A DNA stretch of 64,000 nt from Microbispora corallina (GTDB lineage: Bacteria > Actinomycetota > Actinomycetes > Streptosporangiales > Streptosporangiaceae). This document shows positions 22,014 to 26,324 of this stretch, piece by piece. The notes under the pieces were generated by a model. That model was not told where the DNA came from. It saw only the letters and a list, made by a program, of their open reading frames with translations, and made no database searches. Location of the stretch: assembly GCF_016863035.1 (NCBI RefSeq), contig NZ_BOOC01000015.1, positions 62,001 to 126,000 of the forward strand. Direction: 5' to 3'. Numbering within the stretch: position 1 is the stretch's first letter; every line of letters starts with the position of its first letter. The position numbers and the translations under genes are program-made.

Positions 22014-22169
22014 GTGCGCAAGAACATCCAGATCGTCGACCTGCCCGAGGCCGCCGTGGAGCTGGACGGCGACCAGCTCGACATCGTCGCCGGCGCCCAG
22101 CGCCCCGAGTCCGGCTTCGTGTGCAGCGCCCTCAACGGGTCGAGCAGCGGCGACTGCTGGGACATGTGA
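22014..22169 (+). CDS. RiPP precursor peptide with GA-type leader and two-cysteine core
   Basis: 51 codons, GTG start at 22014 with a strong GAGGAG seven bases upstream. Residues 1-28 look like a double-glycine-type leader: amphipathic NIQIVDLPEAAVEL, then DGDQLDIVAGA, matching the L-x-x-x-Q/E-L-x-x-V-x-G-G/A pattern cut by C39 peptidases. Cleavage after Ala28 would release a 23-residue core from Gln29 to Met51. The core holds Cys37 and Cys48, three consecutive serines (43-45) and acidic residues Glu32, Asp47 and Asp50. Ser plus Asp/Glu side chains are the usual substrates for ATP-grasp ester/amide macrocyclisation. It is followed by a terminator-like hairpin and then an ATP-grasp maturase, a maturation factor and a C39 exporter, which strongly supports the assignment. 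No known precursor family was recognised. Confidence 0.82.
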   Translation: MRKNIQIVDLPEAAVELDGDQLDIVAGAQRPESGFVCSALNGSSSGDCWDM

Positions 22170-22174
22170 TCCGG

Positions 22175-22206
22175 GGGTACGGCCGGGCTCCCGCCCGGCC
22201 GTACCC
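22175..22206 (+). terminator. Strong hairpin between RiPP precursor and maturase genes
   Basis: A perfect 14-pair stem, GGGTACGGCCGGGC (22175-22188) with GCCCGGCCGTACCC (22193-22206), and a four-base loop, beginning five bases after the precursor stop. It probably acts as a partial terminator or mRNA 3'-end stabiliser, so that the short precursor message exceeds that of the enzymes. The maturase ribosome-binding site follows directly. Confidence 0.8.
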
Positions 22207-22225
22207 GGTGGGAAGGGACGCCACA

Positions 22226-23194
22226 ATGCTGTTGATCATCAGTGATCCGCGGGACGACTCGGTGCGCATGGTCGTGCGCCGCCTCGCGGAGCGCGACGTG
22301 CCGTTTCTGTGGTGGGACGAGGCGGAGTTCCCGGAGCGGACCGTCATCGGCACCCGCCTGTCCGGGGAGGGCTGGCGGCAGTCGCTGACGCACGGGGGCA
22401 CGACCTACGACCTCGCCGAGGTCACCGCGGTCTGGCACCGGCGTCCCAACCCGCCGTCGGCGCCGTCCGTGGCCGACCCGAGCCAGCGGGCGTACGCGGA
22501 GCAGATGGCCCGCCAGATGCTCCAGGGCGTCTACGAGCTGATGCCCGCCGAGCGCTGGATGCCGGCCCGGCCCAAGCACCTGGCCCGGGTGGACAACAAG
22601 CTGCTCCACCTGCGCCGGGCCGTCGAGCTGGGGTTCACGGTGCCGGACACGGTGGTCGGCAACGATCCCGGGGACCTCGTGCCCGCCTGGCGGCGCTCGG
22701 GCGGACGGCTGATCTCCAAGGCCCTCGACTTCCGCCCGTTCTTCGTCGACGGCGAGGACCACCACGTCTACACCACGAAGATCGAGCGCAGGGACCTGGC
22801 CGGGCGGCACCGCGTGCGGCACTGCCCGGTGATCCTGCAGCCCAACCTGGCCAAGGCCGTCGAGCTGCGGGTCACCGTCGTGGGGGACCGCGTCTTCAGC
22901 GCCGAGATCGACTCCCAGTCGTCGCGCCTGACCAGCCAGGACTGGCGCCACTACGAGGACCTCGGCGTGGCGTACCGCCCGCATCCCCTGCCCGCCGAGG
23001 TCGAGAAGCGCTGCCTGCGGCTGGTGGACTCGCTCGGGCTCAGCTACGGGGCCGTCGACCTCATCCTCACCCCGGACGGCGAGTACGTGTTCCTCGAGCT
23101 CAACGTCAGCGGCCAGTGGGCGTTCGTCGAGCTGCGCGCCGGGCTGCCGATCGGGGACGCGATCGCCGGCTGGCTCACCGAAGGAAGATCATGA
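22226..23194 (+). CDS. ATP-grasp RiPP maturase (MvdD/graspetide ligase-like)
   Basis: 322 residues, ATG with GGAAGGGA upstream. The layout matches the MvdC/MvdD-type ATP-grasp ligases of graspetides. The N-terminal pre-grasp domain starts MLLIISDPRDDS and includes VWHRRP. The ATP-grasp core has the nucleotide-binding lysine in LISKALDFRP, PVILQPNLAKAVELRVTVVG with the peptide/ATP-contacting Arg, SAEIDSQSS, and the metal-binding end AVDLILTPDGEYVFLELNVS followed by GQW. Members phosphorylate Asp/Glu carboxylates of a leader-bound core and form ester or amide rings with Ser/Thr/Lys (family knowledge). Its substrate should be the peptide encoded 57 bases upstream. The stop overlaps the start of the next gene. 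Confidence 0.9.
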   Translation: MLLIISDPRDDSVRMVVRRLAERDVPFLWWDEAEFPERTVIGTRLSGEGWRQSLTHGGTTYDLAEVTAVWHRRPNPPSAPSVADPSQRAYAEQMARQMLQGVYELMPAERWMPARPKHLARVDNKLLHLRRAVELGFTVPDTVVGNDPGDLVPAWRRSGGRLISKALDFRPFFVDGEDHHVYTTKIERRDLAGRHRVRHCPVILQPNLAKAVELRVTVVGDRVFSAEIDSQSSRLTSQDWRHYEDLGVAYRPHPLPAEVEKRCLRLVDSLGLSYGAVDLILTPDGEYVFLELNVSGQWAFVELRAGLPIGDAIAGWLTEGRS

Positions 23195-24210
23195 TGACAG
23201 ACGTCTTCGGCGGCGACCTCGCGTCCGCCGTACGGCTCCTGCGCACGCTGCCCCGGCGCAGACAGGACGTCGGGCAGGCCGAGCGGCGGGTGCGGGCCTG
23301 GTCGGCCGAGCGCCCCGCCCTGGCGGCCGAGCTCGTCGTGGACGAGCCGCCGGGCACCGGGCAGGTCGGGTACGACCTGCTGCTGGCCCACCCTGAGGGC
23401 GGCACGGTGGCGATCTCCGCCCAGACCGAGGACGGCGTGCCGTGGCTCGTCGACCACTCGACCCACTGGGCGGCCGGGCAGGTCGTGAGCGTGGACGGCA
23501 TCGGGCTGTCCGTGCCCGCCGCCCTGTACGCCCTCCGCGCGCTGGGCGCCCGCGACCGCACGGTGCACGAGCAGCTCGCTGACTACCGGATCCTGCTGTC
23601 GGAGATCGACGGCGACAAGGAGCCGGTGGGCGACGCCGAGCTGCGGGAGGCCATGGACGACTTCCGCCGCCGCCGCGGCCTGTTCAGCCGGGAGCGCACG
23701 CTCCGATGGCTGGAGGAGGTCGGGCTGCCCGAGGACGCCTTCGCCGGCTTCATGGAGACGACGGCCCGGATGAACCGGGTCCGCGCGCGGTTCGCCGGCG
23801 AGCCGGCCAGGGCCTACCTCCGCGAGCACGCCGACGAGCTGGCGCACGCGCGGGCGGCCTGGGTCACCGGGCGCGACCGCGCGGTGATCGAGGAGATCGC
23901 CGGCGCCGACACGGCCGCCGGCCTGCTCGACCGCGCGGGACGCGCCCTGGAGGAGCGGCCCGGGCGGCTGCGCCTCACGACGGCCGCCGGGCCCGCCTCC
24001 GAGCTGCCCGCGCCGCTGCGCGCGGCCGCGCCCGGCCGGGTCGTCGGCCCCGCCGAGTCGGAGGACGGCCTGCTGGCCGGGGTCGTGCTGGACCGCGCCG
24101 CCGCCGACCCGGACGACCCCGCCGCCCTGGCCGCGGCCGCCGACGCCGCCTACACCGCGTGGCTGGCCGGGCGCCGCGCCGCCGCGGCCATCACCTGGCA
24201 CTGGCTATGA
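23191..24210 (+). CDS. Putative peptide maturation protein, PpiC-related
   Basis: 339 residues from ATG 23191; ATG 23194 is equally possible and better spaced from AGGAAG. No signal or membrane segment. The C-terminal half looks like a degenerate SurA/PpiC peptidyl-prolyl isomerase: a helical chaperone-like part (RTLRWLEEVGLPEDAFAGF, RAYLREHADELAHARAAWVT), then a parvulin-like end (APGRVVGPAES, GVVLDRAA). This is the kind of protein annotated 'putative peptide maturation system protein' (TIGR04500-like, from memory) that accompanies C39 exporters and ATP-grasp enzymes. The N-terminal ~150 residues are an unassigned domain. It probably helps present or fold the modified precursor. Coupled to the genes on both sides by 4-base overlaps. 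Confidence 0.72.
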   Translation: MMTDVFGGDLASAVRLLRTLPRRRQDVGQAERRVRAWSAERPALAAELVVDEPPGTGQVGYDLLLAHPEGGTVAISAQTEDGVPWLVDHSTHWAAGQVVSVDGIGLSVPAALYALRALGARDRTVHEQLADYRILLSEIDGDKEPVGDAELREAMDDFRRRRGLFSRERTLRWLEEVGLPEDAFAGFMETTARMNRVRARFAGEPARAYLREHADELAHARAAWVTGRDRAVIEEIAGADTAAGLLDRAGRALEERPGRLRLTTAAGPASELPAPLRAAAPGRVVGPAESEDGLLAGVVLDRAAADPDDPAALAAAADAAYTAWLAGRRAAAAITWHWL

Positions 24211-26324
24211 GACGCCGTGTGCCGCTGCGGATGCAGCAGACCCAGACCGACTGCGGCGCCGCCTGCCTCGCGATGGTGCTCGGCGCCCTGGGCCGCCGTA
24301 CGAGCATCGCCGAGGTCTGGCGCCACCTGCCCGAGAACGCGGACGGGGCGACGCTGCGCGACCTCATCGGCGCCGCCACCGCGTTCGGCCTCCGGCTGCG
24401 GGCCTTCCGGCTCGCGCCCGACCAGGCCGGGGGGCTGCCCACGCCGTTCGTCGCCCATTGGGAGCAGCGCCACTTCGTGGTGGTCGAGCGCGTGGACGCG
24501 CGGGGCGTGGTGGTGGCCGACCCGGCGTCCGGACGGCTGCGCCTGACCCGCGAGCGGTTCGCCGAGGGCTACAGCGGCACGGTACTCGTGCCGGACGTCC
24601 CGGAGCGGCTCACCCCGCCCGAGCCCGGCCGCTCGTCGGCCCGGGCCGTGCTGTCGACGCTGGCGCGGGCGTTCACCGAGCGCCGGCTGATCCTCCAGGT
24701 CGTGGCGGCGACGGCGCTGGTCCAGCTGTTCGGCCTGGCCGTCCCGCTGTTCACCAAGCTCGTGGTGGACGGCGGCGCGCTCTCGCCGGGGGCGCTGGGC
24801 CTGGCGGCCGCCGTCGCCGTGGCCGCGCACCTGCTCGTCTCGCGTGTGCGGTCGTTCCTGCTGATCCGGCTCCAGACCGGGGTGGCGGCGGCGCTCATGC
24901 GGCGGCTCGTCGGCCACGTCCTGGCCTTGCCGTACGGGTTCTTCCAGCGGCGCACCAGCGGCGACCTGCTCAGCCGGCTGAGCGCGGTCTCCGGGATCCG
25001 CAACATGATCGCCGAGCGCTCATTGGCCCTGCTGTTCGACCTGCTGACGGCGTTGACGTACCTCGTCGCCCTCGCCGTCGCCGCGCCCGGCATCGCGGCC
25101 CTGACGGTCGCGGCCGCCGCGGCGCAGGCGGCCGTGGTGGCGCTGTTCGCGGGCCGGTCGGTCCAGCTCGCGTACGCCGGGCTGCACGCCACCTCCGCCA
25201 CCCAGACGAGCCTGGTGGAGAGCCTGTCCGGGATCGAGGCGCTCAAGGCGGCCGGCGCCGAGGACGGCGCGTTCGAGCGGTGGCAGGCCTGCCACCGGCG
25301 GGAGCTGGAGGCGAGCGCCGAGCGGGATCGCACGGTCGTCACGATCCAGGCCGCCACCGAGGCGCTCCAGCTCGCGCTCGCGCTGGGCCTGCTCGTCGTC
25401 GTCCGCGCCCAGCTGCCCGGGTCGTCCAGCCTCGGCGACCTGCTGGCCCTCGCCGCGATGGCGGGCGCGGCGATCGCGCCGCTCTCGTCGCTGCTGGGCA
25501 CGGTGCAGCAGATCCACCTCGCCTTCGCCCACCTGGACCGCGTGGCCGACCTGCTCGCCGCGGCCCCCGAGCCGTCCGGTGGGCTGCGGCCCGCGCTGCG
25601 CGGCGCGGTGGAGGTGCGGGGCGTGTCCGCGGGGTACGACCCGCGCTTCCCGGTCCTGCACGACGTCTCCCTGCGGATCCCGGCGGGGGCCAGGGTGGCC
25701 GTCGTGGGCGGGTCGGGGTCGGGCAAGACGACGCTCGGGCGCGTGCTGCTGGGGCTCGTCGAGCCGGCGAGGGGAGAGGTCCGCTTCGACGGGCTGCCCC
25801 TGCCGGACCTGGACCCGCGGCACCTGCGCCGCCAGGTCGGCGTGGTCACCCAGCAGCCGCACCTGTTCTCCGGCACCGTTCTGGACACGATCGCCTTCGG
25901 GGACCCATCGGTCACGCCCGCCGTCGCCGAGGAGGCCGCCCGGCTCGCCGAGATCCACGACGAGATCCGCGCGATGCCGCTGGGCTACCGCACGCACATC
26001 GGGGAGAGCGGCGGCCGCCTGTCCGGGGGGCAGCGCCAGCGGCTCGCCCTCGCCCGCGCGCTGGCCCGCCGCCCGCGCGTCCTGCTGCTCGACGAGCCGA
26101 CCTCGGCCCTCGACGCGCTCACCGAGGAGCGGATCCGGCTCAACCTGGCGGGCCTCGGCATCACGCAGATCGTGATCGCCCATCGCCTGTCGACGATCCG
26201 GGACGCCGATCTGATCGTCGTCCTGGAGGGCGGCCGGGTGGTGGAGACCGGCACGCACGACGAGCTGCTCTCGTACGGCCGCCGGTACGCCGGCCTGGTG
26301 TCGCTCCAGGCGGCGCCGGGCTGA
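24207..26324 (+). CDS. C39-peptidase ABC exporter of the RiPP operon
   Basis: 705 residues. The N-terminal C39 peptidase domain (~1-140) has a complete catalytic set: Cys16 in QTDCGAAC, His89 in RHFVVVE and Asp105 in ADPASGR. A six-span exporter membrane domain occupies ~165-430. The ATPase domain has Walker A GGSGSGKTT near residue 505, signature LSGGQRQR, Walker B VLLLDEPTSALD and the H-loop His in AHRLST. It removes leaders after double-glycine-type motifs while exporting the core (family knowledge), which fits the VAGA site in the peptide at 22014. Start overlaps the upstream stop (ATGA). Last gene of the four-gene operon. Confidence 0.93.
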   Translation: MRRRVPLRMQQTQTDCGAACLAMVLGALGRRTSIAEVWRHLPENADGATLRDLIGAATAFGLRLRAFRLAPDQAGGLPTPFVAHWEQRHFVVVERVDARGVVVADPASGRLRLTRERFAEGYSGTVLVPDVPERLTPPEPGRSSARAVLSTLARAFTERRLILQVVAATALVQLFGLAVPLFTKLVVDGGALSPGALGLAAAVAVAAHLLVSRVRSFLLIRLQTGVAAALMRRLVGHVLALPYGFFQRRTSGDLLSRLSAVSGIRNMIAERSLALLFDLLTALTYLVALAVAAPGIAALTVAAAAAQAAVVALFAGRSVQLAYAGLHATSATQTSLVESLSGIEALKAAGAEDGAFERWQACHRRELEASAERDRTVVTIQAATEALQLALALGLLVVVRAQLPGSSSLGDLLALAAMAGAAIAPLSSLLGTVQQIHLAFAHLDRVADLLAAAPEPSGGLRPALRGAVEVRGVSAGYDPRFPVLHDVSLRIPAGARVAVVGGSGSGKTTLGRVLLGLVEPARGEVRFDGLPLPDLDPRHLRRQVGVVTQQPHLFSGTVLDTIAFGDPSVTPAVAEEAARLAEIHDEIRAMPLGYRTHIGESGGRLSGGQRQRLALARALARRPRVLLLDEPTSALDALTEERIRLNLAGLGITQIVIAHRLSTIRDADLIVVLEGGRVVETGTHDELLSYGRRYAGLVSLQAAPG

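Follow-up and report, generated by a model that had tools for sequence, protein, structure and literature searches.

What product would be made by a four-gene peptide operon whose precursor carries a pair of cysteines in its core? The operon lies on the plus strand at positions 22014–26324 of a 64,000-nucleotide stretch of the 8.36-Mb genome of Microbispora corallina (G000:C15:62001-126000, here called the window). A first-pass annotation had described it as a self-contained unit of precursor, ATP-grasp maturase, PpiC-related factor, and C39 exporter. Translation of the open reading frames (ORFs) and family matches bear this out: all four genes are open, and they encode a 51-residue precursor with a GTG start (22014–22169), a 322-residue ATP-grasp graspetide synthetase (MvdC/MvdD-like, TIGR04187-like; 22226–23194), a 338-residue TIGR04500 "PpiC-related" partner protein (23194–24210), and a 705-residue ABC exporter containing a C39 peptidase (24207–26324), with distances of 56, –1, and –4 bases in gene order. 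Upstream of the GTG start lies AGAGGAGCAC, in which AGAGGAG resembles a ribosome site. We conclude that this is probably a rosaritide-type, partner-dependent graspetide operon with a core of its own, and that its product would combine one or two ester rings with a disulfide.

All four families, and their order, recur in the operon of rosaritide, a group 21 graspetide from Micromonospora rosaria NRRL 3718 that was published in 2026 as a case of "partner protein-dependent" graspetide biosynthesis; there, mirA encodes the precursor, mirB a TIGR04187 protein, mirC a TIGR04500 protein, and mirD a TIGR03796 protein (PMC13097080; this and the other papers are cited for the passages covered). MirB alone caused no visible change, and MirB with MirC installed three macrolactones, Ser8–Asp22, Ser9–Asp26, and Thr11–Asp24 (PMC13097080). 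We read the window's four genes as a graspetide operon because of this shared order, because ligase, partner, and exporter follow the precursor consecutively in 15/15 window-type loci tested (two are repeats, so that 13 are distinct), and because of the nearest solved relatives of the synthetase. These are PDB entries 5ig8, 7m4s (AMdnB), and 5ig9, which we take to be microviridin synthetases. The synthetase contains an MvdD pre-ATP-grasp domain, finds its best NCBIfam model in TIGR04187 (E 9e-74, 248.5 bits), and adjoins a small conserved precursor, as expected of a graspetide ligase. It has a DWR motif at residues 239–241, and the motif recurs in 62/64 sampled synthetases, that of the rosaritide-type locus L078 included (one has DYR, and in one it was not found in the expected range). 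Its identity to the synthetase of L138 is about 37%. On the synthetase tree, the window's clade has support of 100/98, and in a similarity network of the 64 synthetases with a TIGR04500 neighbor, L078 and the window's clade separate at alignment score 80, with the clade standing alone at 100.

A TIGR04500 gene beside the synthetase characterizes rosaritide-type systems, and the window's partner protein matches TIGR04500 ("PpiC_rel_mature") at E 1e-71 with 242 bits, above the cut-off of 180. Against Pfam it gave no parvulin match, and phmmer against the PDB returned nothing up to E 1. An AlphaFold2 model built from a 10-row alignment (mean predicted local distance difference test score [pLDDT] 81.4, predicted template modeling score [pTM] 0.64, residues 77–94 under 50) suggests an N-terminal helix/strand part, a SurA-like helical part, a parvulin-like part (about residues 201–314), and a C-terminal helix ending in WHWL. 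Strands and helices at 218–302 are modeled with high confidence, followed by the C-terminal helix; we label this stretch parvulin-like only tentatively, from the order of its elements and what we take the parvulin order of strands and helices to be, and the PpiC domain 3gpk matched the model at E 0.47 only. The top solved Foldseek matches were 3rgc (Cj1289, E 2e-6) and SurA, and in the model the partner folds like SurA. For the nine matches with E up to 0.001, template modeling scores were low (0.24–0.35), and the domain arrangement therefore differs from that of the solved matches. For MirC, too, 3rgc was named as the closest solved structure, but without similarity to the isomerase domain of Cj1289 (PMC13097080), and this shared fold match is one of the reasons for calling the operon rosaritide-type. 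The first-pass label "PpiC-related factor" is incomplete: this protein is very probably the partner that the synthetase requires.

Two TIGR04500 proteins, at L003:6981-7652 and L171:3165-3824, are about 114 residues shorter. In the partners of L003 and L143, the missing residues (201–314 of the window's protein by the L003 alignment) span the parvulin-like part, and the C-terminal helix and WHWL end are retained; for L143, where the computed alignment misplaced the tail, the deletion was read from length and sequence end. In the L003 model (mean pLDDT 79.4, pTM 0.54), the N-terminal part, the helical part, and the C-terminal helix are all still present. Because the two loci are sisters on the tree, the shortening is probably one deletion. 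It suggests that these partners can do without the isomerase-like part and argues against a prolyl-isomerase role in these two loci, in line with the proposal that the partner acts as a chaperone or complex member (PMC13097080). The question of a non-isomerase role raised in the rosaritide paper thereby becomes directly testable. The window's genome holds a second TIGR04500-like protein (L137:6872-7561, G000:C44), which covers model positions 89–338 only; no ATP-grasp relative was found in its 11.1-kb stretch, and a neighboring gene looks like one for a 2-oxo acid dehydrogenase E2. Several other genomes of the order have TIGR04500 matches starting near model position 80–118.

The fourth gene encodes an N-terminal Peptidase_C39 domain (E 1.8e-31) followed by ABC transporter domains; its best whole-protein model is TIGR03796 (494.5 bits, below the cut-off of 853.3). 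We take the triad of the peptidase to be the Cys of DCGAAC (residues 15–20, candidate catalytic Cys), the His of HFV (89), and the Asp of DPASG (105); LSGGQ stands at 605. The full precursor is MRKNIQIVDLPEAAVELDGDQLDIVAGAQRPESGFVCSALNGSSSGDCWDM, in which a leader (residues 1–28, ending VAGA) precedes the predicted core QRPESGFVCSALNGSSSGDCWDM (residues 29–51). Cleavage after Gly27-Ala28, in keeping with the GG/GA cutting that had been proposed, is predicted on two grounds: the exporter has a C39 domain, and there are relatives with cores that begin M-x-P. Against Pfam the precursor gave nothing up to E 1, and against NCBIfam one bacteriocin model at E 0.14.

Relatives bear on whether so small an ORF is genuine. 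A scan of genome contigs yielded 74 loci. Within the same order, TIGR04500 matches above cut-off occur in 77/345 genomes and ATP-grasp matches at E 1e-60 or better in 69/345; TIGR04500 was above cut-off in 2/396 genomes of a phylum sample, and ATP-grasp matches at E 1e-40 were found in 26/394 genomes of a class sample, those labeled "same class" being at most 39% identical. The window-type core is present in 13 genomes of the order (window included), each time upstream of the same three genes, at 13 distinct loci whose synthetases are 57–65% identical. A profile built from 12 window-type peptides and run over the 345 genomes found matches with E up to 0.01 in 32 of them. Beyond the 13 window-type loci (12 in the profile and one near-copy), it found 13 places at E < 1e-3, every one followed by an ATP-grasp relative no more than about 620 bases downstream, so the ORF is more than chance; 11 weaker rows (E 0.0017–0.0088), which include likely chance matches, were not counted. 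Searching with tblastn and the window peptide missed the divergent precursors of L170, L172, and L174, which reading of the frames revealed, and in L014/L176 the partner gene is split across frames. On the first-pass annotation's own terms, homologous ATP-grasp genes without a conserved small peptide ahead of them would have counted against it. Such a peptide exists, although 6 of the 29 loci in the last census (L181, L229, L230, L231, L246, and L247) yielded no candidate precursor, four of them having a TIGR04500 gene.

For three ATP-grasp relatives of 45–53% identity (L006/L156, L008/L229, and L013/L246), the fetched DNA shows no match to TIGR04500, and no small ORF resembling a leader peptide turned up upstream. 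A link between absent TIGR04500 and absent precursor is only a hint, as L181, L230, L231, and L247 have TIGR04500 yet no candidate precursor. The window's genome contains a second, distant ATP-grasp ligase (35%; L002:1480-2460, minus strand, G000:C7) with an adjoining ABC exporter relative, possibly another graspetide operon. Outside Actinomycetota, Bradyrhizobium jicamae has an ATP-grasp and TIGR04500 pair (L015, 5800–8105) with a GG-type small ORF upstream.

Which residues of the core would be joined? Motif columns were counted in 29 of 37 aligned precursors; eight (classes B and C, described below, and L159) were dropped because their columns could not be placed, and the alignment itself did not take in near-copies or classes D, E, and F, and it sampled class B with just 4 of its roughly 20 rows. 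Directly behind the first cysteine column (C1), position C1+1 (Ser38 in the window; codons Cys37-Ser38 at 22122–22127) is Ser or Thr in 26/29 (exceptions: Ala in L223b, Arg in L232, and a gap in L223c), and an acidic residue stands downstream of C1 in 29/29, so that conserved candidates for the donor and acceptor expected of a graspetide core are both there. The Ser33 column is Ser or Thr in 21/29. Both cysteines are present in 17/29, neither in 10/29, and one in 2/29 (Cys1 in L232, Cys2 in L223c); among the ten without either, C1 is Ser in five and Ala in five.

The window's clade has 12 distinct precursors, and all but L144 and L146 carry two cysteines. Those two lack both: Ser takes the first place and Thr, as judged by eye from a comparison with L142, the second. 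All ten two-Cys peptides have Ser or Thr at C1+1, and 9/10 have Asp or Glu directly before the second cysteine (C2–1; codons Asp47-Cys48 at 22152–22157). Cys1 was located here by a regular expression that included Ser/Thr at –4 and +1; as two-Cys cores have no other cysteine, the choice of Cys1 was forced, and conservation at –4 is not independent there. With the core defined for this analysis as the eight residues before Cys1 to the end, the joint C1+1/C2–1 count was reached in 0/20000 shuffles of non-Cys core residues. It was likewise reached in 0/20000 with one peptide per lineage (4/4), where C1+1 alone was reached in 69 and C2–1 alone in 6. On a synthetase tree of 34 rows, each locus represented by one precursor, the two-Cys label needs four changes; in the window's clade, four sub-lineages retain the pair.

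This conservation makes Ser38 the strongest donor candidate, ahead of Ser33, and Asp47 the main candidate acceptor, with Asp50 a possible second. The first-pass annotation had listed Cys37, Cys48, Ser43–45, Glu32, Asp47, and Asp50; all positions agree with the translation. Ser43–45 lie in a loop whose length varies among aligned relatives and were set aside as ester donors, and Glu32 is not conserved. The first-pass idea of a core with both a potential ester ring and two cysteines stands. The cysteines behave largely as a unit, as expected of a disulfide, and Cys37 does not look like a required nucleophile, because its column is Ser or Ala in the Cys-free relatives. The C1+1 hydroxyl, the downstream acid, and the largely paired cysteines speak for ester and disulfide together.

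From these features, we infer the following route. The leader (DLP...VAGA) would bring the precursor to a complex of ATP-grasp ligase and TIGR04500 partner, where the ligase would phosphorylate Asp47 and perhaps also Asp50. Joined as an ester to Ser38 and/or Ser33, the activated Asp would close one macrolactone or two. Cleavage behind Gly27-Ala28 and secretion of the 23-residue core would fall to the C39 exporter. After export, Cys37 and Cys48, on either side of the ring residues, would oxidize to a disulfide clamping the same hairpin.

Several observations weigh against this interpretation. The synthetase's 248.5 bits fall below the TIGR04187 cut-off of 350. At alignment score 70, the network threshold used for rosaritide (PMC13097080), all 64 synthetases form a single component, L078 and even Bradyrhizobium L015 included, so that this threshold hardly discriminates. 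The pair rule is violated by L232 and L223c, and the Fisher p of 5.8e-6 for co-occurrence over the 29 precursors is uncorrected for kinship and overstated by the related rows. On the tree, the loss of the pair in L144 and L146 may be one event or two. Asp47 and Asp50 both lie near the C-terminal end of the core, compatible with one ring or two. Finally, the acid follows Cys2 in L142 and stands two before it in the L223–L226 set. Strict nesting of a C1+1 to C2–1 ester inside the disulfide was therefore set aside as a general rule; holding in 9/10 two-Cys peptides of the window's clade, it is retained only as the probable arrangement in the window's own peptide.

Of the rival explanations, a plain graspetide survives best, though we consider it unlikely: Ser33 and Ser38 would form two macrolactones with Asp47 and Asp50, and the cysteines, reduced or binding something else, would be irrelevant to the rings. 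The window's core does have two acids at its C-terminal end as well as a pair of conserved hydroxyls, and nine of the ten Cys-free relatives (all but L180) have two acids past the C1 column. This account must contend with a cysteine pair that is retained in four sub-lineages and gained or lost as a pair with two exceptions. Furthermore, L140, L142, and L145 each have a single acid from eight residues before Cys1 to the end, with more acids upstream, in their leaders. These three peptides would be limited to one ester at most, and two esters would be impossible, if their cores begin at that Met; a cut further upstream would add acids.

A natural thioester, with Cys37 (or Cys48) as nucleophile for a macrothiolactone formed by the ligase, is highly improbable. 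Graspetide synthetases tolerate non-native thiol donors (PMC13097080, PMC12291112), and the C1 column is Ser, another nucleophile, in L144, L146, L227, L179, and L180. Five relatives have Ala in that column, for which reason a Cys37 thioester was set aside as the principal reading, and the residue behind the column is Ser or Thr in 26/29; a thioester also leaves unexplained why the second cysteine mostly comes and goes with the first. We give equally little credence to the proposal that the ligase does other peptide chemistry, such as amino acid addition, and makes no rings. ATP-grasp folds are versatile and the synthetase scores below its model's cut-off, but its closest solved relatives (5ig8, 7m4s, and 5ig9) are presumably of the microviridin ligase kind, and DWR is nearly universal in the sample, L078 included. 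MirA, moreover, receives three esters (PMC13097080). A degenerate or silent operon, to which the GTG start might point, is the least probable of all, with four open genes, a ribosome-site-like AGAGGAG, the C39 motif residues, and a conserved core.

Across the family, one machinery, judged from sequence, serves very different cores. Class A is the window type with a GA/AG leader; class B has xVSWYIGGKPAEW, class C MERCYHTNGTEGRPSDGWVSDY, class D AKSQVIVIHGGHTHTSGDSN, and class E ...PPGVCVED; class F (LPRNGAGSSKTIDDIPGGGRPDTDTDFD, in L078/L138) agrees with rosaritide's published ring positions. Other sets, with two Cys or one, lie beyond these. The class D core is almost invariant in 16 loci (L107–L119, L122, L124, and L125) with one conserved Asp and the same ATP-grasp and TIGR04500 system, and L223 (G603) has three different tandem precursors ahead of one synthetase, two with a Cys pair and one with a single Cys. 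Six sister precursors (L179, L235, L241, L244, L233, and L155) have a lone Cys (C-x-W) in a column that is Ser or Thr in 21/23 other aligned precursors, and these are candidates for a native thioester ring. More speculatively, and with some doubt on our part, the product may be a natural hybrid in which a disulfide is one closure of the graspetide ring network, lineages of the family may swap the Cys pair for a Cys-free two-Asp form or back, and the lone-Cys sisters may make native thioester rings. If the ester-plus-disulfide reading is true, a new ring architecture is added to graspetides; and one partner-dependent synthetase system with many unlike cores in one bacterial order is a natural library for substrate scope.

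Neighboring sequence was compared as well. Among flanking ORFs of at least 120 codons in 12 window-type loci, no extra gene was common to the whole set, and an additional tailoring enzyme for all was set aside for that reason. Only two ORF clusters were common to at least three loci: one is the ORF containing the precursor, and the other occurs about 2.6 kb downstream, plus pieces upstream, in L169, L170, and L172, where it may have a role. Rfam and tRNA scans across the window gave no matches.

How does the operon compare with known systems? In the literature, TIGR04500 was found in PMC13097080 and in PMC8939145, which lists it among families tied to ATP-grasp loci and describes many precursors with conserved cysteines, related there to thioethers. 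Like that of rosaritide, the window's operon has the four families in the same order and a SurA-like partner with the same nearest structure. Its core differs: the rosaritide pattern S-S-x-T ... D-x-D-x-D is absent from it and present in L078/L138, which have no Cys where the window has a pair. With plesiocin-type and microviridin systems the operon shares an ATP-grasp ligase predicted to make side-chain esters, and plesiocin's ring-within-ring hairpin (PMC13097080) resembles a ring pair closed by adjacent residues; unlike in plesiocin, the outer closure would be a disulfide and not a second ester. In the passages covered, the graspetide literature that mentions disulfides describes no natural conserved core disulfide, a full-text search (subscription literature lying outside it) never found "macrolactone," "disulfide," and "ATP-grasp" together, and a word search of the main text of PMC13097080 found neither "disulfide" nor "Cys." The window's core type may be tabulated in the supplement of that paper. 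Stryphnines, sponge knottins with a Ser-Glu ester, place a side-chain ester in a ribosomal disulfide-rich peptide, but they are animal peptides, and the passages covered mention no ATP-grasp/TIGR04500 operon (PMC13418204). The fuscimiditide precursor ThfA is a graspetide precursor with a disulfide-capable Cys, mutated (C76A) to avoid a disulfide; unlike in the window, that Cys lies in the leader, and no conserved core Cys pair is described in the passages covered (PMC13003496). The gene set was already described for group 21 in the rosaritide work (PMC13097080), whereas the core type, with its Cys pair, differs from rosaritide. We conclude that the machinery is already known and that it is the core peptide that differs.

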